Part shown: piece after piece, positions 3,366-39,605 of the stretch | Layout: every line of letters starts with the position of its first letter | Position numbering within the stretch: the stretch's first letter is position 1 | DNA from: Elusimicrobiota bacterium | GTDB taxonomy: Bacteria > Elusimicrobiota > Elusimicrobia > UBA1565 > UBA9628 | DNA length: 64,000 nt | Reading direction: 5' to 3' | NCBI GenBank assembly: GCA_027451985.1 | Contig: DAIDHS010000013.1 | Location: forward strand, 1 to 64,000 | The notes under the pieces: model-generated | Told to the model about the DNA's origin: nothing | Database searches by the model: none | What the model saw: the letters and a program-made list of their open reading frames with translations, nothing else | Position numbers and translations under genes: made by a program

Positions 3366-3959
3366 CTATTTTCGCAGCGTCAGTTGGAGCGCGCCGGCGG
3401 CGACTAAAGGCATCCAGAGATTGTCGTTGAACCAGGAGGTGACCGGGGCGTATTCCACCGCAGTCGCGGCTGCGGCCGCGAACAAGGAGGGCGCCCAGCC
3501 CAAGCCCAGGAACAGGCCAATGCCCATGCAGACGGCCAGGCAGGAGAGTGTGCCCTCCAGGGTTTTGCCCGGGCCGATGGAATGGCGGCCCAGGGCCTTG
3601 CCGCCCAAAGCCGCAGCGGCGTCGCCCAAAGCGGCGCAGCCTAGGGCGAAGGCCACCGACTTGGGATCTTTTCCAAAGAAAACAAAGGCCAGCAGGCTTC
3701 CCAGGGTCGTGTGGAAGAGCGCGCTTACGCGATTATTTTCTTCGGGCCGGACGATGCTGGAAAAGGGCCGGAGGATGATCCGGTTCCAAGCCGGAAAACA
3801 CAGCCGCGCGGTTTCGGCCGCGCTGACCGCGATGGTCCAGAGCGCCATCCAGAAGATCGTGCGCTTAAGCCCCAGGGTCCGGTAGAGAACGTAGTAGAGG
3901 AGCGATAGGAGGTGGAAGATTTTGCGCGGCATCTCGCGCAAGAGCGAGGTTTCGTTCAT
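3366..3959 (-). CDS. Dolichol kinase / phosphatidate cytidylyltransferase-like membrane protein
   Basis: 197 residues with about six hydrophobic segments. The motif ALGDAAAALGGKALGRHSI followed by PGKTLEGTL is the signature of the CTP-dependent polyprenol/diacylglycerol/phytol kinase group (SEC59, DGK1, VTE5), related to CdsA. The bacterial members probably phosphorylate a membrane lipid alcohol using CTP; the substrate cannot be told from sequence. Its start overlaps the stop of the upstream HExxH protein by four bases (ATGA), implying translational coupling. Confidence 0.72.
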   Translation of the reverse strand: MNETSLLREMPRKIFHLLSLLYYVLYRTLGLKRTIFWMALWTIAVSAAETARLCFPAWNRIILRPFSSIVRPEENNRVSALFHTTLGSLLAFVFFGKDPKSVAFALGCAALGDAAAALGGKALGRHSIGPGKTLEGTLSCLAVCMGIGLFLGLGWAPSLFAAAAATAVEYAPVTSWFNDNLWMPLVAAGALQLTLRK

Positions 3960-4672
3960 GCGCGCAGGCGCCTTAAGGCCCGCCCGCCCAGCGCCGCGGC
4001 CGCAAGCCAGAACCTAGCGCCCAGCGACCATGACGAGCGCACGGTCGCCAGGAAAAAGACCGAGCGGGGGAAAAGAGCCCCCGCCAGGGCCAGGATGACC
4101 AGGCCGTTAACCGCGGCAATGGCGGAGAGAGAAAAGACCACGCCGCCGGCGGCGTGCAGGTCCGGCTGGGAGAGGTCCCAGACGTATTCGACGGTTTTGG
4201 TCAAGTGGAAAGCGATGGTCACGCCGACCAGCGCCAAAAACGGAGCCGACGGGAGACCGGGCTTGAAGGCCGCAGCGATTCGCCACGCCAGGAGAGTCGC
4301 GGCGGTATAGACCGGCAGGCAGTAGGGAGCCAGGGCGATAAATGAGTTGCTCTTGTCCAAATCGACGTGGCCCGAGCGCCGGCCCACGTGAAAGGTGAAG
4401 ACCTTCGCGCCGAAGAGCCAGGCAGCCAGCGCGTGGGAGAGTTCGTGGCCGAAGATGTAGATGCGCCTCTGGGCCGCGTCGTAAAGGCGCGCCGGCCCGC
4501 TTCGCGGCGAAAAAAAACGGGCCGCCAGCCAGGCCAAGGCGGCGCAGGCGAATCCGATGGAGAAAGGCGCGGCGCCGGCGCGGCCGACGGCCAGGAAAAG
4601 GGCTTTGAGCGCCAAGGCCAGAAGAGCCGCCGCGAAGGGCGCCAGCGCGGTTCCGATGATCCAGAAGATCAC
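3956..4672 (-). CDS. Membrane HExxH zinc metalloprotease-like protein (M50-like)
   Basis: 238 residues, GTG start, with five or six membrane segments. The central FGHELSHALAAWLFGAKV contains an HExxH zinc motif placed in a hydrophobic helix, as in M50 site-2 proteases and related integral-membrane proteins. The second M50 motif (Asn/Pro...Asp-Gly near the C-terminus) is not evident, so activity as an intramembrane protease is uncertain. It sits four bases after the upstream hypothetical gene and overlaps the lipid-kinase-like gene, so the three are probably cotranscribed. Confidence 0.6.
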   Translation of the reverse strand: MIFWIIGTALAPFAAALLALALKALFLAVGRAGAAPFSIGFACAALAWLAARFFSPRSGPARLYDAAQRRIYIFGHELSHALAAWLFGAKVFTFHVGRRSGHVDLDKSNSFIALAPYCLPVYTAATLLAWRIAAAFKPGLPSAPFLALVGVTIAFHLTKTVEYVWDLSQPDLHAAGGVVFSLSAIAAVNGLVILALAGALFPRSVFFLATVRSSWSLGARFWLAAAALGGRALRRLRA

Positions 4673-4675
4673 CGG

Positions 4676-5134
4676 CTACTCCAGCATGTAGTCTTTGTAA
4701 GGGATTTTCTCGGTCGCGAGCTCTTTTTCCCAAAGCGCCTTGGCCTTGGGCATCTCAGCGCGGCAGAGGCGGGTCCAGTGGTTCTCCGGAGGGGAGAAAA
4801 GCTCGGCGCCGGTCTCGAACCAGACGTAGGCGTACTTAAGCGAACTTTCGGACAGGGCCTGATCGTGACGGATTTTGGCTAGGGCGCTCTTCTGTTCGAA
4901 TTCGTTTTGACCGATGCTCCCCGCTTGGCGCTCTTTTGCGAGCGCGGCTTCCTGCCGGGCTAGCACGCCGTCGTAGTAGGATTTTTTGAGCGAGGGGTTC
5001 TGCGCCCAGAGCAGGTATTTCTTGCCTTCCTGGTAGGCCGCGCGCGCGCGCAGGTCCAAATCCAGGCGGACTAGGCCATAGACGGCGGCGGCGCACGCAA
5101 GCACGGCGGCCGCGGCGCGCAGCGGCCGGCTCAT
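4676..5134 (-). CDS. Hypothetical membrane-anchored protein
   Basis: 152 residues; not recognised. One N-terminal hydrophobic segment (LRAAAAVLACAAAVYGLVRL) is followed by a charged, helix-rich domain with many Lys/Glu/Ala and several Tyr/Trp residues (YAYVWFETGAELF), possibly TPR-like. A signal anchor facing the periplasm is likely. Its ATG overlaps the TGA of the upstream receiver gene (ATGA), so it is probably made together with that regulator. Confidence 0.6.
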   Translation of the reverse strand: MSRPLRAAAAVLACAAAVYGLVRLDLDLRARAAYQEGKKYLLWAQNPSLKKSYYDGVLARQEAALAKERQAGSIGQNEFEQKSALAKIRHDQALSESSLKYAYVWFETGAELFSPPENHWTRLCRAEMPKAKALWEKELATEKIPYKDYMLE

Positions 5135-29543: not shown

Positions 29544-31094
29544 ATGAGTCCTCAAGCCGGCCTCTCCCGACGCAGCGCCGGCATCCTGTTGCACCCGACG
29601 TCCTTGCCCGGGCCGTGGGGTTCCGGCGATCTGGGTCCGGCCGCGCATGAATTCCTTAAAACGCTCGCGGGCTGCGGCCAGTCCTGGTGGCAGATGCTGC
29701 CCGTGGTCCCGGTCGGAGCCGGGTCCTCGCCCTACAGCGCGCGCTCGGTTTTCGCGGGCGAGCCCCTGCTGGTCAGTCTGGAGGCATTGGTTGAGGCGGG
29801 CTATTTGTCCTCCGCGGATTTGAAGCCGCCGCAGCTTTCCGAAGGGCGGGCCGATTTCGAGTCAGCCTGGCGCGCCAAGCGTCCGCTTTTTGACGCGGCC
29901 TTCGAGGCTTCCGAGCGGAGGGCGAGCGCCGAGGCGCGGCGCGCCTTCGAGTCTTTCCGCGCCGAGAACGCCGTTTGGCTCGAGGACTACGCCTTATTCG
30001 CCGCCCTGCGCGAGGCCCACGGCGGCGCCAGTTGGGCCAGTTGGGAAAAGCCCCTGAGGCATCGCGAGGCCGCAGCCTTGGAGTCGGCGCGCCGCTTGCT
30101 GGCGCGGGAAATCCGCTTTCACGTGTTTTTGCAGCACCATTTCTCCAGGCAGTGGGAGAGCTTGCGCGAAAAAGCCCGCGCCTTGGGCATCGGGCTCATC
30201 GGAGATATCCCGATTTTCGTCGCGCACGACAGCGCCGAAGTCTGGGCCCACCAGGATCTTTTTCAGTTGGACTCCGAAGGCCGTCCGACCGCGGTCGCGG
30301 GCGTGCCGCCGGACTATTTCAGCCGCACGGGCCAGCTCTGGGGCAACCCGCTCTATCGCTGGGATGAAATGCGCCGGCGCGGCTACGCGTGGTGGATCGC
30401 GCGCTTCAAATCCGTCTTCGCGCGCTTCGACGCCGTGCGTCTGGATCATTTTATCGGCTTTCACAACTACTGGGAGATCCCGGCGGACGCGCCCACGGCC
30501 GAGACCGGGCGCTGGGTGCCGGGACCCAACGAAGACTTGTTCCTGCGCGCGCAGGAGGCCCTGGGTCCGCTCGCGCTCATCGCCGAGGACCTGGGCGTGG
30601 TGACGCAGGGCGTCAAGGACCTGAGGGAGCGGCTGGGCTTTCCCGGCATCCGGGTGATGCAGATGGCTTTTGGGACCGACCCGGAGGCGGAGTCCTACCG
30701 GCCGCACAATTATCCCGAGAACTGCGTGGCCTATACCGGCACGCACGACAACGACACCACGCTGGGCTGGTTCCGCGACGACGGCGGCAAGAGCAGCACG
30801 CGCACGCGCGCGGAAATCGAGACAGAGCGCGCCGCGGTGCTTGGCTACGTCGGCACGGACGGCCGGGAGCTGAACTGGGATTTCATCCGGCTGGCCTTTG
30901 AATCCAAGGCGAACACGGCCGTCGTGCCCCTGCAAGACGTCCTGGGCTTGGGCTCCGAGGCGCGCATGAACCTGCCCGGCACAGCCGAGGGCAACTGGCG
31001 CTGGCGCATGAAGGACGGGGCGCTGACCCCCGAGCTCTCCGGGCGTCTGGCCGAGATAGCCGCCGAGTCCGGCCGCCGGCCGAAGCGGGATTAA
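29544..31094 (+). CDS. malQ: 4-alpha-glucanotransferase (amylomaltase)
   Basis: 516 residues, GH77, the short amylomaltase form. Motifs: LPGPWGSGDLGPAAHEFL, GDIPIFVAHDSAEVWAHQDLF, the nucleophile Asp in VRLDHFIGFHNYWEIP, the acid Glu in LIAEDLGVVT, and YTGTHDNDTTLGWF with the third Asp. It transfers glucan segments between maltodextrins in the cytoplasm, releasing glucose. It converges with the MFS carrier gene, 3' ends overlapping by four bases, and belongs with the carrier and the secreted amylase in an alpha-glucan module. Confidence 0.96.
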   Translation: MSPQAGLSRRSAGILLHPTSLPGPWGSGDLGPAAHEFLKTLAGCGQSWWQMLPVVPVGAGSSPYSARSVFAGEPLLVSLEALVEAGYLSSADLKPPQLSEGRADFESAWRAKRPLFDAAFEASERRASAEARRAFESFRAENAVWLEDYALFAALREAHGGASWASWEKPLRHREAAALESARRLLAREIRFHVFLQHHFSRQWESLREKARALGIGLIGDIPIFVAHDSAEVWAHQDLFQLDSEGRPTAVAGVPPDYFSRTGQLWGNPLYRWDEMRRRGYAWWIARFKSVFARFDAVRLDHFIGFHNYWEIPADAPTAETGRWVPGPNEDLFLRAQEALGPLALIAEDLGVVTQGVKDLRERLGFPGIRVMQMAFGTDPEAESYRPHNYPENCVAYTGTHDNDTTLGWFRDDGGKSSTRTRAEIETERAAVLGYVGTDGRELNWDFIRLAFESKANTAVVPLQDVLGLGSEARMNLPGTAEGNWRWRMKDGALTPELSGRLAEIAAESGRRPKRD

Positions 31095-32440
31095 GCCGCG
31101 GGAGCGGGCGCCGGCGCGGCTTGTGCCTCGGGCTCGAAGCGGCGCAGCCCCGGAGTTAAGGCCGCGGCGAAGAGGATGAGCGCTCCGCCCAGAGCCACCA
31201 CCGCCGCGTCGTTGTTGTGCAAGAAGGTCTCCATCACGCCGCCCAGACCCAAAGACACCAGGATTTCCGGCAGCACGATGAACATGTTGAAGATGCCCAT
31301 GAAGATGCCGTAGCGCTCGGCGGGCAGCTGCTCAACGAGGATCACGTAGGGCATGGAGACGATGGAAGCCCAGCCGATGCCGGCCGCGATCATGGGAAGG
31401 TAGAGCATTTCCGGGTTGTGAATCCAGGGGATGGCGAAGAGCCCAAGGCCGCAGAGTAAAAGCGAGAGGCCGTGAGTGTAGGCCCGGCCAATGTAGCGCA
31501 CAAGAAACGGCAGGCACAAGGCAAAGACCGGTGCCGCCACGCCTTTGACCATCATGGTCCGCGCCGCCCAGCGGATGCCGTGTTCGTAGAGCGCGGTGTG
31601 CGGATTGACCGCGCCGAAGACGTCCTGGGCCACGGCGATGGAGTAGTATATCCACATGCAGAATAACCCCATCCAAGTGAAAAACTGGATGACGGCCAGG
31701 CGCTTCATGGCCGACGGCATGTGGATGTAGCAGTCCGCAGTCTCGGCCAGCCACCTCTTGAGCGCGGGCCACAGGGCCTCCGCTTCGCGGCCGACGCGCG
31801 CGAAGGGTTCGTCCGGCGGGTACTCCGGCGTGGTCGCGACGCTGTAGGCCACCGAGAGGAACAGGATGACGGCGCAGGCGTAGAAAGAGAGGTGCGCCGC
31901 ATCCTTGCCGAAGCGCGAGAGAAAGGGAAAAACCTGGTTCAGATCGACGGAGGCGATGTAGTTGCCCAGGATGGTGCCCAGGCCGATCATGAGGCTCTGC
32001 AGGGCGTAGCCCGTGGGACGCTGGTCCGAATTCTGCGTGTCCGCGACCAAGGCGCGGAAGGGCTCCATGGTGATGTTCAATGACGCGTCCAAAATCCACA
32101 GGAGCCCCGCCGCCATCCAGAGGGAGGAAGCGTCCGGCATGAAGCACAAGGCCATCGAGGCCAAGGCGGCGCCGGCCATGAAGTAGGGGCGGCGGCGCAT
32201 GCGCAGAGGCGCGATCCAGGTCTTGTCGCTCAAATAGCCGATGATGGGCTGGATGATGAGCCCGGTCGCGGGCGCGGCCAGCCAGAGGAGCGGAATCTGG
32301 GCCGGCTTGGCGCCCAGCTTCTCGTAGATGGAGCTCATGCGCGCGAACTGGATTTCGAAGCCGTGTTGGATTCCGAAGAATCCGACGCTCATGTTGATGA
32401 GTGCCAGGAGGGAGAGGTTGGGCCGCTTGGCGTCGGCCAC
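31091..32440 (-). CDS. MFS sugar carrier, SLC45/sucrose-maltose type
   Basis: 449 residues from a GTG at 32440; TGGAGA stands eight bases before it and the upstream amylase stop is two bases away. A longer frame would invade the amylase gene. About twelve membrane helices. Motifs typical of the SLC45/GPH-like disaccharide group: PIIGYLSDKTW, RMRRRPYFMAGA, MEPFRALVADTQ, GYALQSLMIGLGTILGNYI. It probably moves maltose, maltodextrin, sucrose or trehalose by proton symport. Its position directly behind the secreted amylase gene and against malQ favours alpha-glucosides. Confidence 0.84.
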   Translation of the reverse strand: MADAKRPNLSLLALINMSVGFFGIQHGFEIQFARMSSIYEKLGAKPAQIPLLWLAAPATGLIIQPIIGYLSDKTWIAPLRMRRRPYFMAGAALASMALCFMPDASSLWMAAGLLWILDASLNITMEPFRALVADTQNSDQRPTGYALQSLMIGLGTILGNYIASVDLNQVFPFLSRFGKDAAHLSFYACAVILFLSVAYSVATTPEYPPDEPFARVGREAEALWPALKRWLAETADCYIHMPSAMKRLAVIQFFTWMGLFCMWIYYSIAVAQDVFGAVNPHTALYEHGIRWAARTMMVKGVAAPVFALCLPFLVRYIGRAYTHGLSLLLCGLGLFAIPWIHNPEMLYLPMIAAGIGWASIVSMPYVILVEQLPAERYGIFMGIFNMFIVLPEILVSLGLGGVMETFLHNNDAAVVALGGALILFAAALTPGLRRFEPEAQAAPAPAPAA

Positions 32441-32442
32441 GG

Positions 32443-35400
32443 CTATCTCCAGAATCCCGTGTGGGCGGCGACGGAGGTAGCCACGAAGAAGGCGGCCCAA
32501 AGGGCCGCGGAAAGGGCGACGGCGGCGAAGCGGTTCTTGGGGTAGAGCTTCGCGGCGACAAGCTGCGGGCCCAGGATGAGGAGCGGCCCCAGGATGCCGA
32601 TGGCGTTTCCGGTCACGTTGTACCAGCGGCCCGCGGACATGAAGATGGGGACCAGGAACAGGTTGCCGACCATGCCGACGATAAGATAGAGCGGACGGAT
32701 GCCTTGCAGGCTTTCAAAGGCCTTGCGGCGCGCCTCCGGAGCGGCCGTGGGGTCCTTCATCTCTCTCAGGGCGCGACGATTGGCGAGAATTTGGGGCAGC
32801 GTGAACCCCGTGAAGACCGCAGTGGCCGCGATGCCCATGGCTTGCACCAGCCAGGCGTGGGCGATGATGGGCCAGGCTACGGCGACGGCGGCCGCGGAGC
32901 CAAGGACGACGAGTCCCCATTTCCAACGCGGGAAGACTTTTCCCGAAGCCAGCTGCGCGAGGATGTAAACAGAGCCGGCGGCGCCGATGAGCGCGTTGCC
33001 GATGAGCGCGGCGCTGCCGCTGGCCAGAAAGGTTGGGAAATTAAGCAGATTGCCTGCGATGAGCGTCATCTGGGAGAGAGCGCTCACGCCCGAGAGTCGC
33101 TGCCGGGCCTGGACGGCCGCTTGTCCGCCTTCTTTTAAAAGCCGCAGGTTCTTGCGGTTGGCGGCGATTTGCACCCAGGGAAAGAAGAAAAAGGTCACAT
33201 TGGCGGCCCAGCCCGAGATAGAGGAGAGAAGCGCGTAGTGCGCGATGACCCACGGGGCGGCCAGGGCGGCCGCTCCGACCAGAGCCGCGGCGCCTGCGGC
33301 GAAAAGGATGGCGGCGGGGGTTCCGAAGCCCGAGTCCGTCCGTGTGCGGCCCGCGGATTTTCCGGCCCTGGCCAAGCGCAGGACCGCGCCTTCACCGGGC
33401 GCTAGTTCGGCGGCGGCCGCGGCGGCGTAGCCGGGGACTTGGGCGCCGGCCGTAAGCGGGGCTTGGGTTGGGTTGGCCAGGACGGCGTAGACCGGAGCCT
33501 CTGGGTTGTTGGCGGACTTGAGCAGGTAACCGACCCAGGCGGCGCTTTGATCCGCGGGCTCAAGGGGCTCTAGAACGGGTGAGCCCAACTCCTTCTTGAT
33601 GTCCTTGGCCTGGGCGAAGAGCGACTCGAAGAACGGGGCGTATTCTGGGTGCTGGGCCGACCACTGGGACCAATCCACGCTGACGGGAACGGAGAAGGGA
33701 ACGGCCTTGGGAAAATCGCCAGGATCGGGATGGTCGTAGCCGATCTCCTGCGAGGCGTAGAAGAGCAAGTTGCCGGGCAAGAGCAGCGTCATGAGCGCGG
33801 CGGCCTTCCAGAGCCGGCCCAGGCCGCTCACGGGCCGCCTGTCGATGGCGGCTTGGCGCTCGGGCGCGGCTTCATCATGGTTGCCGATGAACTCAAGGCC
33901 CGTGGCGCCGCCCTTCTGCCAGGTCAGGAAGGCGGCTTCGCGCACGGCCTGCCGGATGTCGCCCACGGAGGCGTTCATCCACGCGTCGTACCATCCGTAC
34001 TGGCCCTCGCCCGTATTCATGTCGTTCTTGTTGTAGATGGAGTCGAAGCCCGCGGCAGAAAGAGCGTCGCGAAAGGCGTAGGCTTCCGCGAGGTAGGCCG
34101 CGGAGGGGTTTTGCCGCCGCCCCGTCTCGATGAGCTGGGCCAAAAATTCCTTGGGCGGCGTCTGCACGCCCCAGAGGCTCGAGAAAGCGCCGTTGAGAAG
34201 CTGGTAGGCCATGTCCACGCGCAGGCCGTCGACGCCGCGGGCGATCCAGCGGGCCGCGATGGCCGACATGGCGTCGCGCGCGTCTTGGCGGGAATAGTCG
34301 AGCTGGGCGGTGTCCTTCCAATAGGCGCGGGCTCCGAAGGAGTTGTAGCCGCCGTGGCTCACCCAGATCCAGCGGCCGAGCTTCTGGCTGAAGTACGAGA
34401 AGTAGCCTTCAGGCGGCTTCTGCGCATCCCCTTCGACCTCGCGATGGATGAAGAACTCCGGATGCTCGGCCAAGAGGCTAGAGTCCATCGAGGTATGGTT
34501 GGGCACGAAATCGAGCACGACCTTCAGGCCCGCGGCGTGGGCGCGGCGGACGAAGCCCTCGAAGTCCTCCATTGTCCCCAACTCGGGGTTGACCGCGGCG
34601 TTGTCCTGGATGGAGTAGGGCGAGCCGCCGGCGGTCCCGATGCGGTTTCTTTCGCCGATGGGGAAGATGCCCATGGTCCAAACCGAGTCGTAGCCTTGGG
34701 ATTTAAGGTCAGCCAAATCCTCTGCGGAAAAATCGGCGAAAAACTTTCCGGTTGAAGAGCCCTCCGACCGGCCGCGCCAGGCGCGCCAAGACTGAAGGTT
34801 GAAGGCGCGGGGGAAAATCTCGTAGATGCGGCTTTTTTGCATCCAGGCGGAGGGCCAGAACTCGAGCGCCGCAGTCTGCAGGGCCTTGACGCCGTCCTCG
34901 AGCAGCCCTTGGAGGGCGGAGTTCTTGCGCGTGGGGCTCATTTTCGCCTGGCGCAAGGCGTCCGTGCGGGCCTGCAGCGCGGCCGCGGCGGGAATTTCGC
35001 GTGCGGGGGAAAGCAGCGCGTCCAAATACTCGAAATATTGGTCCAGGTGATGGAGGATGGACGCGGGACCGAGGTCCGACTCGATTTCCCGCTTGGAGTA
35101 CGTGAAGCCTTCCAGGCCGGCGCTGCGGGCGGAGAACGTCTCGTCCGGCCGGCCCGCGATGTGGAAGACGAACGGGTTGACGCGCTGGCCTTGGGCATTC
35201 CTGGTGCCGGCGCTCAAGACCGCGCGTAACAGCCCCGCGCGGCGCAGGCTCGCGTCAGGCAGGACGGGAGAATCGGCGGAACCAGCGGGAAGATCAAGTC
35301 TGGCGTCCCGGCTCAAGGATTCGGCGGAAGCGGCGGGTGAGGAAGAGGCGAGTTGTTTCGAGAGCCGCCGGGACATTTCCTCCTTGAGGTGCTGCAGGTA

Positions 35401-35850
35401 AGCGAAGGGACGCGGCGTCTGCGATGGAGAGCCGCCCTCGGTTCCGGCTTTCCGGCTTTGCGCGTCGCGCGCCGCCGGAGACGCGGGCAGAGCCGCAGCC
35501 TCTTCCAGCCGAACCGCGGCTTGCGGTTCCGCGGGGGCTTTTTCCGCGGCCGCCGCAGTGCGCGGCGTTTCCGAGCGGAGCAAATCGGCGGCGTTGGGGG
35601 CCGGCAGGGCCGATAAATTGGCGTCGGGGGAGAGATCCGCCGGCAGGGTCGGCAAGCTCGGGATGGCGGGCACGGCGCCCGTCCCGGCGGCCGTGGGAAG
35701 TTCCTGCGGGGCCTCGTCCGCTGCGGAGAACTCCTGGGCGGCCAGACGGTAGCCTTCGAGCTGAGGGCCGACTCCCAGGATGAGGAAGCTTATAAGGATG
35801 CTGAAGGCTTTGCGGAGGACGAAGGGGAAGTCATCCTTGCTTCCGTTCAT
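32443..35850 (-). CDS. Secreted GH13 alpha-amylase fused to a duplicated SWEET/PQ-loop-like membrane domain
   Basis: 1135 residues from the ATG at 35850. Hydrophobic signal or anchor at 12-30; Ala/Pro/Ser-rich linker about 40-200; helical region to ~335; GH13 barrel ~338-830. All four GH13 regions are present: Asp447 (VVLDFVPNH), nucleophile Asp546 (GLRVDMAY), acid Glu589 (YLAEAY), Asp659 (FIGNHDE). The C-terminal ~270 residues hold seven or eight membrane helices in two similar halves (~872-980 and ~998-1108), each with an ANRK/ANRR-type loop after a P-x-x-Q or PQ motif (PWVQIAANRK, TLPQILANRR), a GN-hydrophobic-P helix and a KxFP/KLYP end. This resembles PQ-loop/SWEET transporters. Catalysis outside and sugar passage in one chain is inferred. 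A maltodextrin-type carrier gene follows. Confidence 0.82.
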   Translation of the reverse strand: MNGSKDDFPFVLRKAFSILISFLILGVGPQLEGYRLAAQEFSAADEAPQELPTAAGTGAVPAIPSLPTLPADLSPDANLSALPAPNAADLLRSETPRTAAAAEKAPAEPQAAVRLEEAAALPASPAARDAQSRKAGTEGGSPSQTPRPFAYLQHLKEEMSRRLSKQLASSSPAASAESLSRDARLDLPAGSADSPVLPDASLRRAGLLRAVLSAGTRNAQGQRVNPFVFHIAGRPDETFSARSAGLEGFTYSKREIESDLGPASILHHLDQYFEYLDALLSPAREIPAAAALQARTDALRQAKMSPTRKNSALQGLLEDGVKALQTAALEFWPSAWMQKSRIYEIFPRAFNLQSWRAWRGRSEGSSTGKFFADFSAEDLADLKSQGYDSVWTMGIFPIGERNRIGTAGGSPYSIQDNAAVNPELGTMEDFEGFVRRAHAAGLKVVLDFVPNHTSMDSSLLAEHPEFFIHREVEGDAQKPPEGYFSYFSQKLGRWIWVSHGGYNSFGARAYWKDTAQLDYSRQDARDAMSAIAARWIARGVDGLRVDMAYQLLNGAFSSLWGVQTPPKEFLAQLIETGRRQNPSAAYLAEAYAFRDALSAAGFDSIYNKNDMNTGEGQYGWYDAWMNASVGDIRQAVREAAFLTWQKGGATGLEFIGNHDEAAPERQAAIDRRPVSGLGRLWKAAALMTLLLPGNLLFYASQEIGYDHPDPGDFPKAVPFSVPVSVDWSQWSAQHPEYAPFFESLFAQAKDIKKELGSPVLEPLEPADQSAAWVGYLLKSANNPEAPVYAVLANPTQAPLTAGAQVPGYAAAAAAELAPGEGAVLRLARAGKSAGRTRTDSGFGTPAAILFAAGAAALVGAAALAAPWVIAHYALLSSISGWAANVTFFFFPWVQIAANRKNLRLLKEGGQAAVQARQRLSGVSALSQMTLIAGNLLNFPTFLASGSAALIGNALIGAAGSVYILAQLASGKVFPRWKWGLVVLGSAAAVAVAWPIIAHAWLVQAMGIAATAVFTGFTLPQILANRRALREMKDPTAAPEARRKAFESLQGIRPLYLIVGMVGNLFLVPIFMSAGRWYNVTGNAIGILGPLLILGPQLVAAKLYPKNRFAAVALSAALWAAFFVATSVAAHTGFWR

Positions 35851-35988: not shown

Positions 35989-35994
35989 TATAAT
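35989..35994 (+). promoter_or_regulatory. -10 element for the gatC operon
   Basis: A perfect TATAAT (context TTTGATATAATTG) lies 23 bases before the ATG at 36018. No clear -35 match is seen 16-18 bases upstream. Confidence 0.6.
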
Positions 35995-36017
35995 TGACGC
36001 GCCTAAACCAACCAACC

Positions 36018-36308
36018 ATGAGCCTCGGCCTCGAAGACGTCCGAAAAATCGCCAAGCTGGCGCGCCTGCGGCTCTCCGCGGATGAGGAAGCCCTCTACCG
36101 CGAGCAGATGGGCAAGATTTTGGACTCAGTCGCGGAACTCTCGCGCCTGGACACGGCGGACGTGCAGCCCACCGCCTCGGTCTCGGGCGCCGCAAGCGCC
36201 TGGCGGGAAGATCGGGCGATTGCGTTCCCTGGCGCCGAAAAAATCCTGTCCCTCGCGCCCGAGCGCGAAGGCCCTTATTTCAAGGTGAAGAAGGTCATCG
36301 AGGGATGA
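36018..36308 (+). CDS. gatC: Aspartyl/glutamyl-tRNA amidotransferase subunit C
   Basis: 96 residues from the ATG at 36018; a TTG at 35994 would add eight residues but lies on the -10 box. The family pattern is clear: LEDVRKIAKLARLRLSADEE, YREQMGKILDSVAELSRLDT, and the ending EGPYFKVKKVIEG. GatC wraps GatA and GatB in the GatCAB complex that converts Glu-tRNA(Gln) and/or Asp-tRNA(Asn) to the amidated form. Its stop overlaps the gatA ATG by four bases. Confidence 0.95.
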   Translation: MSLGLEDVRKIAKLARLRLSADEEALYREQMGKILDSVAELSRLDTADVQPTASVSGAASAWREDRAIAFPGAEKILSLAPEREGPYFKVKKVIEG

Positions 36309-37759
36309 CGACCATCGGGCTTTCGGCTGCGGACATCGCCGCGGGCGTTTCGGGTGGCGCGTTTTCCGCCGAGGACGTCGCGCGCGAGCACTTGGCCCGC
36401 ATCAAGGAAAAGGACGCGGGCATCCGCGCCTTCGTGACCGTCCTCGAGGAGCAGGCCCTGGCCCAGGCGCGCGCGGTCGACGCCAAGAAAAAACGCGGGG
36501 AGAAGCTGGGCGCCCTGTGCGGCGTCCCGGTCGCGGTCAAGGACAACATTCTCATCGAAGGGGTGGAGACCACCTGCTCCTCGAAAATTTTGAAGGGCTA
36601 CGTCGCTCCTTACGACGCCGATGTGATCGCGCGGCTGCGCAAGGCCGACGCGGTCTTCATCGGTAAGACCAACCTGGACGAGTTCGCCATGGGCTCCTCG
36701 ACCGAAAACTCGGCGTTCTTCAAGACCGCCAACCCCTGGAACAAGGACTGCGTGCCGGGCGGCTCCTCGGGCGGCTCGGCCGCGGCCGTGGCCGCAGGCT
36801 TTGCGCCTCTGGCCTTGGGCTCGGACACTGGCGGGTCCATCCGCCAACCGGCGGCCCTGTGCGGCGCCGTGGGCCTGAAGCCCACTTACGGCGCGGTTTC
36901 GCGCCGCGGGCTCATCGCCTTCGCTTCTTCTTTGGATCAAATCGGCCCCATCACGCGCACCGCGGCCGACGCGGCCCTGGCCCTCTCCGTCATCGGCGGA
37001 CACGATCCGCTTGATTCCACCTCCTCGCCGGAGTTCGATGCGGGCAAGGCCCTGGAACCCGCGCCCAAGAGCTTTGTCGGATTGCGCGTGGGCATCCCCA
37101 AGGAATATTTCATCAAGGGCATCGATCCCGAGGTTGAAAAAGCCGTGCGCGAGGCGATCGCGGTCTTCGAGAAGCTGGGCGCCAAGACGAGCGAGGTGTC
37201 CCTGCCGCACAGCCAGTACGCGATCAGCACCTACTACCTCATCGCGCCCTCGGAGGCCAGCTCCAACCTCGCGCGTTTCGACGGCATCCGCTATGGGCGA
37301 CGGGCTGCGGAAGCCGCGACTCTGGAGGAAGTCTACGAACGCTCACGCGGCGAGGGCTTCGGCCCCGAGGTCAAGCGGCGCATCATGCTGGGGACCTATG
37401 CCTTGTCCTCAGGCTATTACGACGCCTACTACGCCAAGGCCCAGCGCGTCAGGACCCTCATCAAGCAAGACTTTGAGAAGGCGTTCGCGTCGGTCGATTT
37501 GCTGCTCACGCCCACCGCGCCGTCTCCCGCCTTTAAGTTCGGCGAGAAAACTAAGGACCCGCTGTCGATGTACCTCTCAGATGTCTTCACGATTCCTTCC
37601 AACCTCGCCGGCAACGCTTCCATTTCGGTGCCCTGCGGGCTGACGCGCTCGGGCTTGCCCATCGGTCTGCAGATCATCGCAGATCAATTCCAAGACGGGC
37701 GCCTTCTGGCCGCGGCCGCGGCCTTCGAGCGCGAGCGGCCCTTCCCGAGGCTCAGCTGA
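36305..37759 (+). CDS. gatA: Aspartyl/glutamyl-tRNA amidotransferase subunit A
   Basis: 484 residues of the amidase-signature family. The catalytic Lys-cisSer-Ser triad is visible: the Lys in PVAVKDNI, then GGSSGGSAAAVAAG and GSDTGGSIRQPA with the two serines. FGPEVKRRIMLGTYALSSGYYDAYY is GatA-specific. It hydrolyses glutamine and supplies ammonia to GatB. One-base overlap with the following Nudix gene. Confidence 0.97.
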   Translation: MTTIGLSAADIAAGVSGGAFSAEDVAREHLARIKEKDAGIRAFVTVLEEQALAQARAVDAKKKRGEKLGALCGVPVAVKDNILIEGVETTCSSKILKGYVAPYDADVIARLRKADAVFIGKTNLDEFAMGSSTENSAFFKTANPWNKDCVPGGSSGGSAAAVAAGFAPLALGSDTGGSIRQPAALCGAVGLKPTYGAVSRRGLIAFASSLDQIGPITRTAADAALALSVIGGHDPLDSTSSPEFDAGKALEPAPKSFVGLRVGIPKEYFIKGIDPEVEKAVREAIAVFEKLGAKTSEVSLPHSQYAISTYYLIAPSEASSNLARFDGIRYGRRAAEAATLEEVYERSRGEGFGPEVKRRIMLGTYALSSGYYDAYYAKAQRVRTLIKQDFEKAFASVDLLLTPTAPSPAFKFGEKTKDPLSMYLSDVFTIPSNLAGNASISVPCGLTRSGLPIGLQIIADQFQDGRLLAAAAAFERERPFPRLS

Positions 37760-38157
37760 TGCGCGAGGAATTTTCCGCCGGCGGCGTAGTCCTGCGGGGC
37801 GGCGAAATGGCCTTGGTGCAGGTGACCAATCTCAAGGGCGAGACAGTCTGGACCTTCCCAAAAGGGCACCTTGAGGCGGGCGAGTCGGCCCAGGAGGCCG
37901 CGTTGCGCGAGGTGGAGGAGGAAACCGGCTGGCGCTGCAAGACGATTAAGCCCCTCATCAAGGTGCACTACCAATTTTCCCGGCAGGGCGTGCCCGTTTC
38001 CAAGAGCGTCGAATGGTTCCTGATGGAGCCCCTGGAGAAAGTCGGCGAGCCGGCCGAGGGAGAAATCCTCTCCTGCCGCTGGGCCACGGCCGAGGCCGCG
38101 CGCAAGCTGGTGCGCTATCCCTCGGACGTCGAGCTTCTGGGGCTGGTGGCGGCTTGA
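37759..38157 (+). CDS. Nudix hydrolase
   Basis: 132 residues. The Nudix box is present (GHLEAGESAQEAALREVEEETGW, matching Gx5Ex7REUxEExGU). The start REEFSAGGVVLRGG and the T/VWTFPKGH lead-in resemble the Ap4A-hydrolase/MutT-like group, so a diadenosine polyphosphate or nucleotide substrate is likely but unproven. It sits between gatA and gatB with single-base overlaps at both ends, a placement not explained by the amidotransferase itself. Confidence 0.88.
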   Translation: MREEFSAGGVVLRGGEMALVQVTNLKGETVWTFPKGHLEAGESAQEAALREVEEETGWRCKTIKPLIKVHYQFSRQGVPVSKSVEWFLMEPLEKVGEPAEGEILSCRWATAEAARKLVRYPSDVELLGLVAA

Positions 38158-39605
38158 TGGCGAGCTACGAGATGGTGGTGGGCCTTGAGGTCCACGCGCA
38201 GCTGGCCACGGAGAGCAAACTTTTCTGCTCCTGCCCGACGGACGGCTTCGGCGCGACGCCCAACAGCCGGATTTGCCCGGTGTGCACCGGACAGCCGGGC
38301 GTTCTGCCGGTTTTGAACCGAAGGGCCGCGGAGCTGGCCTTCCGCGCGGCCGCGGCGCTGGGCTGCCGCATCGCACCCGTCTCCATCTTCGCGCGCAAGA
38401 ACTACTTTTACCCCGATCTGCCCAAGGCCTACCAGATCTCCCAGTACGAGCTGCCCTTCTCCGAGCACGGGGGACTTGAAATCCGGGACAAGGAGGGCCA
38501 TACTCAGCGGGTGCGCATCCACCGCATCCACATGGAGGAGGACGCGGGCAAGCTTCTCCACGCCGTGGGCGCGGAGAAGCTTGATTACTCCTTGGTGGAC
38601 TTCAATCGGGCCGGCACGCCGCTGGTCGAAATCGTCTCGGAGCCCGACATCCGCAGCTCCGATGAGGCCTACGCCTATCTCACGGCTTTGAAGGAAATCC
38701 TGCAGTACGCCGGAGTCTCGGGCTGCAACATGGAAAAAGGCGAGATGCGCTGCGACGCCAACGTTTCCCTGCGCCCCGCCGGGACGGAGAAGTTCGGCAC
38801 GCGCGCCGAAATCAAGAACTTGAACTCTTTTCATAACGTCAAGCTCGCCTTGGATTACGAGTTCGCGCGCCAAGCCGAGATTCTGGACTCCGGCGGCCGC
38901 GTCGTGCAGGAGACCAGGCTTTGGGACGCTGAGCGGGGAGCGACCGCCTCCATGCGCTCCAAGGAAGAGGCTCACGACTACCGCTATTTCCCCGATCCGG
39001 ACTTGCTGCCGCTTCACGCCGACGCGGCCTGGGTCGAGCGCGTCAAAGCCTCGGTGCCGGAACTGCCCGCGCAGCGCCGCGCGCGCCTGGCCGCCGAGTT
39101 CGGGCTCTCGGACTATGACGCCGAAGTTTTGACTGCTGAAAGAGCTTTGGGAGATTTTTTTCTTGAGGCAAATCCTGAGCGGGGATCCGCAAAAACTTTG
39201 GCAAACTTTATAACAACGGAACTTCAGGGGAAACTTAATTCGGAAAATATCCCTATAGAGGAAATCCCGATTAAACCACTTCAACTCTGTAGTTTGGTCG
39301 GCTTGACTAATACAGGAATAATTTCAAGCAAAGGGGCAAAGGAAATCTTCTCCGAGATGTGGAAAACAGGTAAAGATCCAAAGGAATTAGTGCAGGAACT
39401 GGGCCTGGCCCAGGTCTCGGACGAGGGACAAATCAAGGCCTGGATTCAAGAGGCTTTAGCCGCCAACCCCAAGGCGGCCGAGGATTTGCGCGGCGGCAAG
39501 GAGCGCGCGGCCGGCTCCATCGTCGGCGCGGTCATGAAGCTCTCCAAGGGCAAGGCGAATCCGGCCCTGGTCAACCGCCTTATTAAGGAAGCGGTCAAGG
39601 CATGA
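38157..39605 (+). CDS. gatB: Aspartyl/glutamyl-tRNA amidotransferase subunit B, with a low-GC internal patch
   Basis: 482 residues from the ATG at 38157 (MASYEMVVGLEVHAQL). GatB motifs: FCSCPTDGFGATPNSRICPVCTG, the HMEEDAGK kinase-site segment, DFNRAGTPLVEIVSEPD and KSKEEAHDYRYFPDPDL-like RSKEEAHDYRYFPDPDL; the C-terminal tail domain (GSIVGAVMKLSKGKANPALVNRL) binds tRNA. It activates the misacylated tRNA with ATP. Bases 39121-39400 have about 41% G+C with AAA/GAA/TTT-type codons, whereas the preceding 60 bases have 75%; the frame is intact and the protein still looks like GatB. Recombination with a lower-GC gatB is the simplest explanation. Confidence 0.96.
   Translation: MASYEMVVGLEVHAQLATESKLFCSCPTDGFGATPNSRICPVCTGQPGVLPVLNRRAAELAFRAAAALGCRIAPVSIFARKNYFYPDLPKAYQISQYELPFSEHGGLEIRDKEGHTQRVRIHRIHMEEDAGKLLHAVGAEKLDYSLVDFNRAGTPLVEIVSEPDIRSSDEAYAYLTALKEILQYAGVSGCNMEKGEMRCDANVSLRPAGTEKFGTRAEIKNLNSFHNVKLALDYEFARQAEILDSGGRVVQETRLWDAERGATASMRSKEEAHDYRYFPDPDLLPLHADAAWVERVKASVPELPAQRRARLAAEFGLSDYDAEVLTAERALGDFFLEANPERGSAKTLANFITTELQGKLNSENIPIEEIPIKPLQLCSLVGLTNTGIISSKGAKEIFSEMWKTGKDPKELVQELGLAQVSDEGQIKAWIQEALAANPKAAEDLRGGKERAAGSIVGAVMKLSKGKANPALVNRLIKEAVKA
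39121..39400 (+). other. Low-GC segment inside gatB (recombination candidate)
   Basis: 115 of 280 bases are G or C by direct count (41%), against 45 of 60 (75%) immediately before and 36 of 60 (60%) just after 39421. The edges are abrupt and third codon positions become A/T-rich. It covers the linker and start of the GatB tail domain. Confidence 0.75.

Follow-up and report, generated by a model that had tools for sequence, protein, structure and literature searches.

SWEET transporters of eukaryotes (MtN3/saliva; AtSWEET13, OsSWEET2b) have a 3+1+3 arrangement of helices with two homologous bundles, a proline in TM1 of each half and an asparagine early in TM3. Bacteria harbor SemiSWEETs and also 7-helix SWEETs, the latter formed by duplication according to the parts of Jia et al. 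used here; these parts describe a SemiSWEET gene near an alpha-amylase gene in Nitrosomonas communis and mention no hydrolase fused to a bacterial SWEET, and the proteins treated there share the PQ-loop clan with the domain described below but are separate proteins (PMC5972207, PMC5742349). Regarding the enzyme, the nearest PDB sequences to the GH13 part studied here are 3dhu and AmyB of Thermotoga neapolitana (4gkl), which share the GH13 barrel and the catalytic residues but are both soluble and possess no membrane domain. A GH13-fold ectodomain is paired with a transporter, as in the present protein, in rBAT/4F2hc (SLC3) with SLC7, and rBAT is among the matches of the GH13 part. SLC3 subunits have no catalytic activity and form a chain of their own, and their partner is an amino-acid transporter. 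Within the Elusimicrobiota, tandem PQ-loop proteins with a HAD-like domain or a uridine/adenylate kinase share the signal, the linker and a homologous PQ-loop domain with the present protein, whereas their enzymes are others and the kinases are located C-terminal to the membrane part.

The protein considered here is encoded in the window (the whole stretch of 64,000 nucleotides of an Elusimicrobiota bacterium that was analyzed) and joins an amylase to a SWEET-like membrane domain. Unlike the eukaryotic SWEETs, this domain is bacterial, lies under the Pfam threshold, carries extra helices at both ends, has the binding tryptophan replaced in a by-eye alignment and is fused to an amylase. No glycoside hydrolase fused to a SWEET/PQ-loop domain was found described in the open-licence PMC literature, covered mainly through titles and abstracts; both parts are of known kinds, and it is the joined design and its recurrence that appear to be new. 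We consider it reasonably probable that the fusion is a membrane-tethered starch-degrading enzyme carrying its own SWEET-like sugar facilitator, transport being predicted.

Chain layout and the amylase domain

The fusion reading frame encodes 1135 aa on the minus strand, from the ATG at 35850 to the TAG at 32443 (Table 1). A Sec-like signal is followed by an Ala/Pro linker, the GH13 domain and, from about residue 841, the membrane domain; this single-chain composition, already proposed in the initial annotation, was confirmed by the reading frame, Pfam and hydropathy, whereas the seven or eight membrane helices counted there have to be corrected to nine hydrophobic helices in the C-terminal ~290 residues. 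The GH13 domain (PF00128, E 2e-25, residues 379-707 in the Pfam search) has the catalytic barrel, the Asp/Glu/Asp set and the four conserved regions of a GH13 alpha-amylase; DFVPNH, GLRVD546, AE589 and NHD659 are all intact and align column by column with the relatives. The three acids previously named as catalytic (Asp546, Glu589 and Asp659) fall in the catalytic columns of these relatives.

Table 1. Features of the fusion gene and its neighbors (window positions), and related chains at other loci
Feature	Position	Strand	Evidence
Sec-type signal segment, residues 1-37 (MNGSKDDFPFVLRKAFSILISFLILGVG...RLAAQ)	35740..35850	-	sequence, hydropathy; A-x-A Sec signals in unfused relatives
Ala/Pro-rich linker, residues 38-200	35251..35739	-	sequence
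GH13 amylase domain with C-terminal beta-sandwich, residues 336-800	33451..34845	-	PF00128, 3dhu/4gkl, AF2 composite, Foldseek GH13 matches
Catalytic nucleophile Asp546 codon	34213..34215	-	GH13 region II aligned
Acid/base Glu589 codon	34084..34086	-	GH13 region III aligned
Transition-state Asp659 codon	33874..33876	-	GH13 region IV aligned
Extra hydrophobic helix TM0, residues 845-863, putative span	33262..33318	-	hydropathy 2.21; low-confidence AF2 helix
First three-helix bundle TM1-3, residues 872-969	32944..33237	-	AF2, repeat test, SWEET fold matches
Linking helix TM4, residues 975-995	32866..32928	-	AF2 helix 135-155 of domain
Second three-helix bundle TM5-7 with LPQ motif, residues 999-1098	32557..32856	-	AF2, repeat test, weak PF04193 (14.7 bits)
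C-terminal helix TM8, residues 1105-1128	32467..32538	-	AF2 helix 265-288
MFS sugar transporter (GPH/SUT-like), likely GTG start 2 nt past fusion stop	31091..32440	-	MFS_1 3.5e-24; TIGR01301 4.5e-31
4-alpha-glucanotransferase MalQ (GH77), convergent neighbor	29544..31094	+	Pfam GH77 3.6e-174
HAD-like/PQ-loop fusions	L116:4784-6952:-, L122:1404-3575:+, L126:1928-4285:+, L132:2106-4322:+, L133:3520-5718:-		
Kinase/PQ-loop chains	L118:1645-4566:+, L119, L120, L121, L123, L124, L127, L128		

Two separate genes joined through a sequencing or assembly error would agree with the components being separate genes ~74 kb apart in the genome G024, and with related components being adjacent genes in G014. 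Such an error is nevertheless hardly credible: two families contain the same fusion in genomes that are independent of each other, and the window and G026 share the FWR-stop end beside the MFS start. The search of other genomes put forward with the initial annotation recovered the fusion in a sister species (G001) and in another family (G333), which excludes chance and sequencing error; an assembly artefact was rejected on the same recurrence.

Fold and sequence affinities of the membrane domain

By hydropathy and AlphaFold2 (AF2), the nine helices consist of TM0, a 3+1+3 core and TM8. The template-free AF2 model of the membrane domain, obtained from seven sequences (pLDDT 85.7, pTM 0.79), recovered the triple-helix bundle, with SWEETs as the best fold match, so that structure prediction came out on the side of the initial annotation. 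In Foldseek against the PDB, the top seven matches were AtSWEET13, five OsSWEET2b chains and Arabidopsis cystinosin, with probabilities of 0.99-1.00, E values of 0.01-0.06 and TM scores of 0.37-0.65 (0.42-0.65 for the SWEETs alone), and the probability dropped to 0.25 at the eighth; the modest E and TM values mean that the SWEET fold is supported while the match is not close. The homology of both halves, another point of that annotation, was borne out by hhalign (probability 98.3, E 2e-14, score 79, with no score above 20 among 60 column shuffles). Model and repeat test together give the arrangement of the SWEET clan, two homologous triple-helix bundles and one joining helix, and the membrane domain is thus shown, at the level of a predicted structure, to fold as a duplicated triple-helix bundle like the SWEET/PQ-loop carriers. 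An AF2 model of the GH13 and membrane parts together reached a pTM of 0.49, at which the relative placement of the domains is undefined and no docking is claimed.

Direct sequence searches were less telling. The window domain scored 14.7 bits with PF04193 in Pfam and missed the cut-off of 22 bits; searches with the membrane domain in Pfam, NCBIfam and PDB sequences returned only this sub-threshold PQ-loop match, and no SWEET was recovered when PDB sequences were searched with a profile. PF04193 is matched by all five A1 members, with a best E of 6.9e-5. Elusimicrobiota SemiSWEETs, which coexist as separate genes (open frames mostly of ~85-140 aa), yielded nothing useful when compared with the halves by hhalign from a quick MAFFT alignment; this alignment was poor, and the result is not counted against the relationship. 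However, an alignment of ~207 columns links the membrane family to tandem PQ-loop proteins of the phylum that do pass the PF04193 cut-off (hhalign probability 97.7, E 1.4e-12, score 90.7 compared to a shuffled maximum of 31.7), and the standalone member of G024 is matched by all three membrane-family profiles at ~1e-8 or better, so that the gap left by the sub-threshold Pfam score is filled by sequence. The PQ-loop/MtN3 match anticipated for this region consequently fails when taken directly and holds through its homologous tandem families. The plan of eukaryotic SWEETs ascribed to the domain is supported by these links above the Pfam cut-off, by the fold comparison and by the repeat test.

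The motifs named beforehand are present (FPWVQ/LPQ, ANRK/ANRR, GNLLNFP/GNLFLVP and GKVFP/AKLYP), although half 1 reads P-W-V-Q and has no literal PQ. The TM1 proline of both halves, which represents the Pro(-Gln) signature, is invariant across all five A1 members, as is the TM3 asparagine of half 1; the TM3 asparagine of half 2 is kept in most members and is a cysteine in the GH14 fusion described below. Substrate binding in LbSemiSWEET involves Trp48 (TM2) and Asn64 (TM3) in the part of the source used here (PMC5972207). When aligned by eye, the window domain carries asparagine (half 1) and leucine (half 2) at the substrate tryptophan position of SWEETs and SemiSWEETs.

Relatives and repeated enzyme-membrane association

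Matches to the window-type membrane domain were found in 7 of 341 Elusimicrobiota genomes. The GH13-membrane fusion of G001 is the same as that of the window, and in G333 a GH13 is joined to the same membrane domain. The GH13 parts are of different lineages according to the GH13 tree, where a single clade of the window/G001 and G333 fused domains was rejected (AU p 2.8e-11). G026 harbors the same membrane domain with a GH14 beta-amylase instead of the GH13, the GH14 domain being full-length (PF01373 4e-135, 1-402 of 402); since GH14 is above the cut-off in only this one of the 56 genomes of the order, the beta-amylase looks acquired. G024 and G014 possess the membrane domain with signal and linker and without enzyme, while G334 and, in the same family, G053 combine a GH13-like domain devoid of catalytic acids with only half of the membrane domain, which hints at an old link between amylase and membrane part. 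These pseudo-GH13 chains are located at L050:5631-10787:- (G334), where the frame also includes a subtilase and HEAT repeats, and at L136:4208-8413:- (G053).

A second GH13 group carries, by inspection, a divergent PQ-loop-like tail with an LPQI helix in nine genomes (G056, G046, G008, G034, G045, G022, G013, G018 and G025), the other members of the group being without tail. This tail is related to the window domain (hhalign 93.7%, E 1.9e-7, score 57.9; 56.8 in the reverse comparison vs a shuffled maximum of 21.7). In G014 the GH13 and this divergent membrane domain are encoded by neighboring separate genes, both of which have a signal. Together, the GH14 swap, the distinct GH13 lineages, the divergent tails and the split pair indicate that amylases and SWEET-like modules have been associated repeatedly, through either several fusions or one old fusion that was lost many times. 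Amylases of several lineages joined to such membrane parts suggest that starch cutting and sugar movement across the membrane are coupled.

Other enzymes accompany tandem PQ-loop domains in the phylum. Chains with signal, linker, HAD-like domain and tandem PQ-loop were found in five genomes of two families (one with a weak HAD-IIB match), and further chains consist of signal, linker, tandem PQ-loop and a C-terminal uridine-kinase-like domain, followed in several by an adenylate kinase domain (Table 1); a signal peptide ahead of ATP-dependent kinases is unexpected. Additionally, G333 encodes a 3414-residue, polyprotein-like frame (L125:1254-11495:-) with apparently two ABC-transporter parts and a PQ-loop match. 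Its L049 locus contains repeated elements of ~50-100 nt, partly as inverted copies (669-767, 3434-3532, 4648-4746, 1145-1199), that are in frame within the GH13-membrane fusion and MFS genes and lengthen loops, as protein-coding repeat elements.

Orientation, gene neighborhood and proposed function

The GH13 enzyme is most likely exported, given that classic Sec signals with A-x-A are found on fused and unfused relatives. Positive charge occurs in loops TM1-2, TM3-4, TM5-6 and TM7-8 in most members, so that TM1 would begin on the outside, like that of SWEETs. An exported enzyme fits this orientation only if TM0 does not span the membrane; a spanning TM0 would bring it into conflict with the positive-inside rule. 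TM0 of the window is as hydrophobic as any other helix and is strongly hydrophobic in 4 of 6 members. An enzyme that stays in the cytoplasm, with an N-terminal segment that is no working signal and a SWEET-like part that exports sugar from intracellular glycogen or dextrins, would agree with the positive charges ahead of TM0 in most members and, should TM0 span, with all of the strongly positive loops, and the kinases on the sister fusions require ATP. We regard this arrangement as improbable: the signals are of the classic A-x-A type, the GH14 fusion has a weak TM0 (1.14), an exported enzyme runs directly into TM1 in the divergent GH13 fusions, which lack TM0 altogether, and the C-terminal kinases are also cytosolic under a seven-helix, N-out reading.

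Downstream, the window, G001, G026 and G333 share the order fusion, MFS gene and convergent malQ, with MFS proteins at 67-96% identity to that of the window. The window MFS is closest to the sucrose/proton symporter subfamily (TIGR01301), although far under the cut-off of that model. The last fusion codons are TTC TGG AGA TAG in both the window and G026, the likely MFS start follows 2 or 3 nt on, and the GGAG at the ribosome-site position for the MFS is supplied by these codons (CTGGAGATAG). In the gut Elusimicrobiota examined, an MFS relative adjoins MalQ in two of three loci.

With the enzyme outside, the favored facilitator reading proceeds as follows. The signal would export the GH13 domain, which, judging from its family, would cleave alpha-glucans to maltose, short maltodextrins or glucose beside the inner membrane, and the small products would most likely diffuse across through the SWEET-like C-terminal domain. 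The MFS symporter, which may handle another sugar size or provide active uptake, and cytosolic MalQ would complete the pathway, their gene order being observed and their roles presumed. Direct passage of product through the membrane domain is predicted and plausible, and it gains strength from the exchange of GH13 for GH14 and from the cluster of sugar genes; the same module on a beta-amylase in G026 argues for selection on the coupling of saccharification to the membrane module and not on one particular enzyme. Against a facilitator, an MFS importer is already adjacent, so that a second pore is not obviously needed, and the SWEET binding tryptophan is not conserved in the by-eye alignment.

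The latter two points would suit a membrane domain that has kept the PQ-loop fold but lost transport and serves merely to anchor the amylase or to sense sugar as a receptor, the enzyme being held at the membrane so that its products reach the neighboring MFS. A SWEET-like fold can indeed be a receptor, as the KDEL receptor illustrates in the part of the source used here (PMC7561476), and the pseudo-enzymes with half a membrane domain in G334 and G053 point the same way. We consider such a role unlikely, though deserving of attention, because one helix or a lipid anchor would be enough for tethering, whereas the full duplicated bundle is maintained in many genomes, even enzyme-free in G024 and G014, and the invariant TM3 asparagine of half 1 also speaks against it. 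A broader proposal, that a vectorial saccharification module of exported GH13/GH14 amylases covalently bound to their own SWEET-like channel, into whose pore the product would be released, was built repeatedly from different enzymes in the Elusimicrobiota lineage, is put forward tentatively, as possible rather than probable.

Should sugar pass through the membrane part, the chain would unite an enzyme covalently with the channel of its own product; this would be a simple example of vectorial metabolism and would offer a natural template for taking up starch with one chain. That amylases of several lineages recur on such modules is evidence for selection on the coupling itself, and a duplicated, eukaryote-like SWEET architecture in bacteria bears on the origin of SWEETs from SemiSWEETs.

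Upstream of the fusion, on the other strand, the window contains gatC, gatA, a NUDIX gene and gatB (35994-39605), which are unrelated to sugar use. G026 additionally harbors a starch/glycogen synthase (GT5, Pfam 1e-75; L038:150-2024:+) near MalQ and the GH14 fusion, with an apparent signal peptide and an Ala/Pro linker even though ADP-glucose, the usual substrate, is cytosolic.
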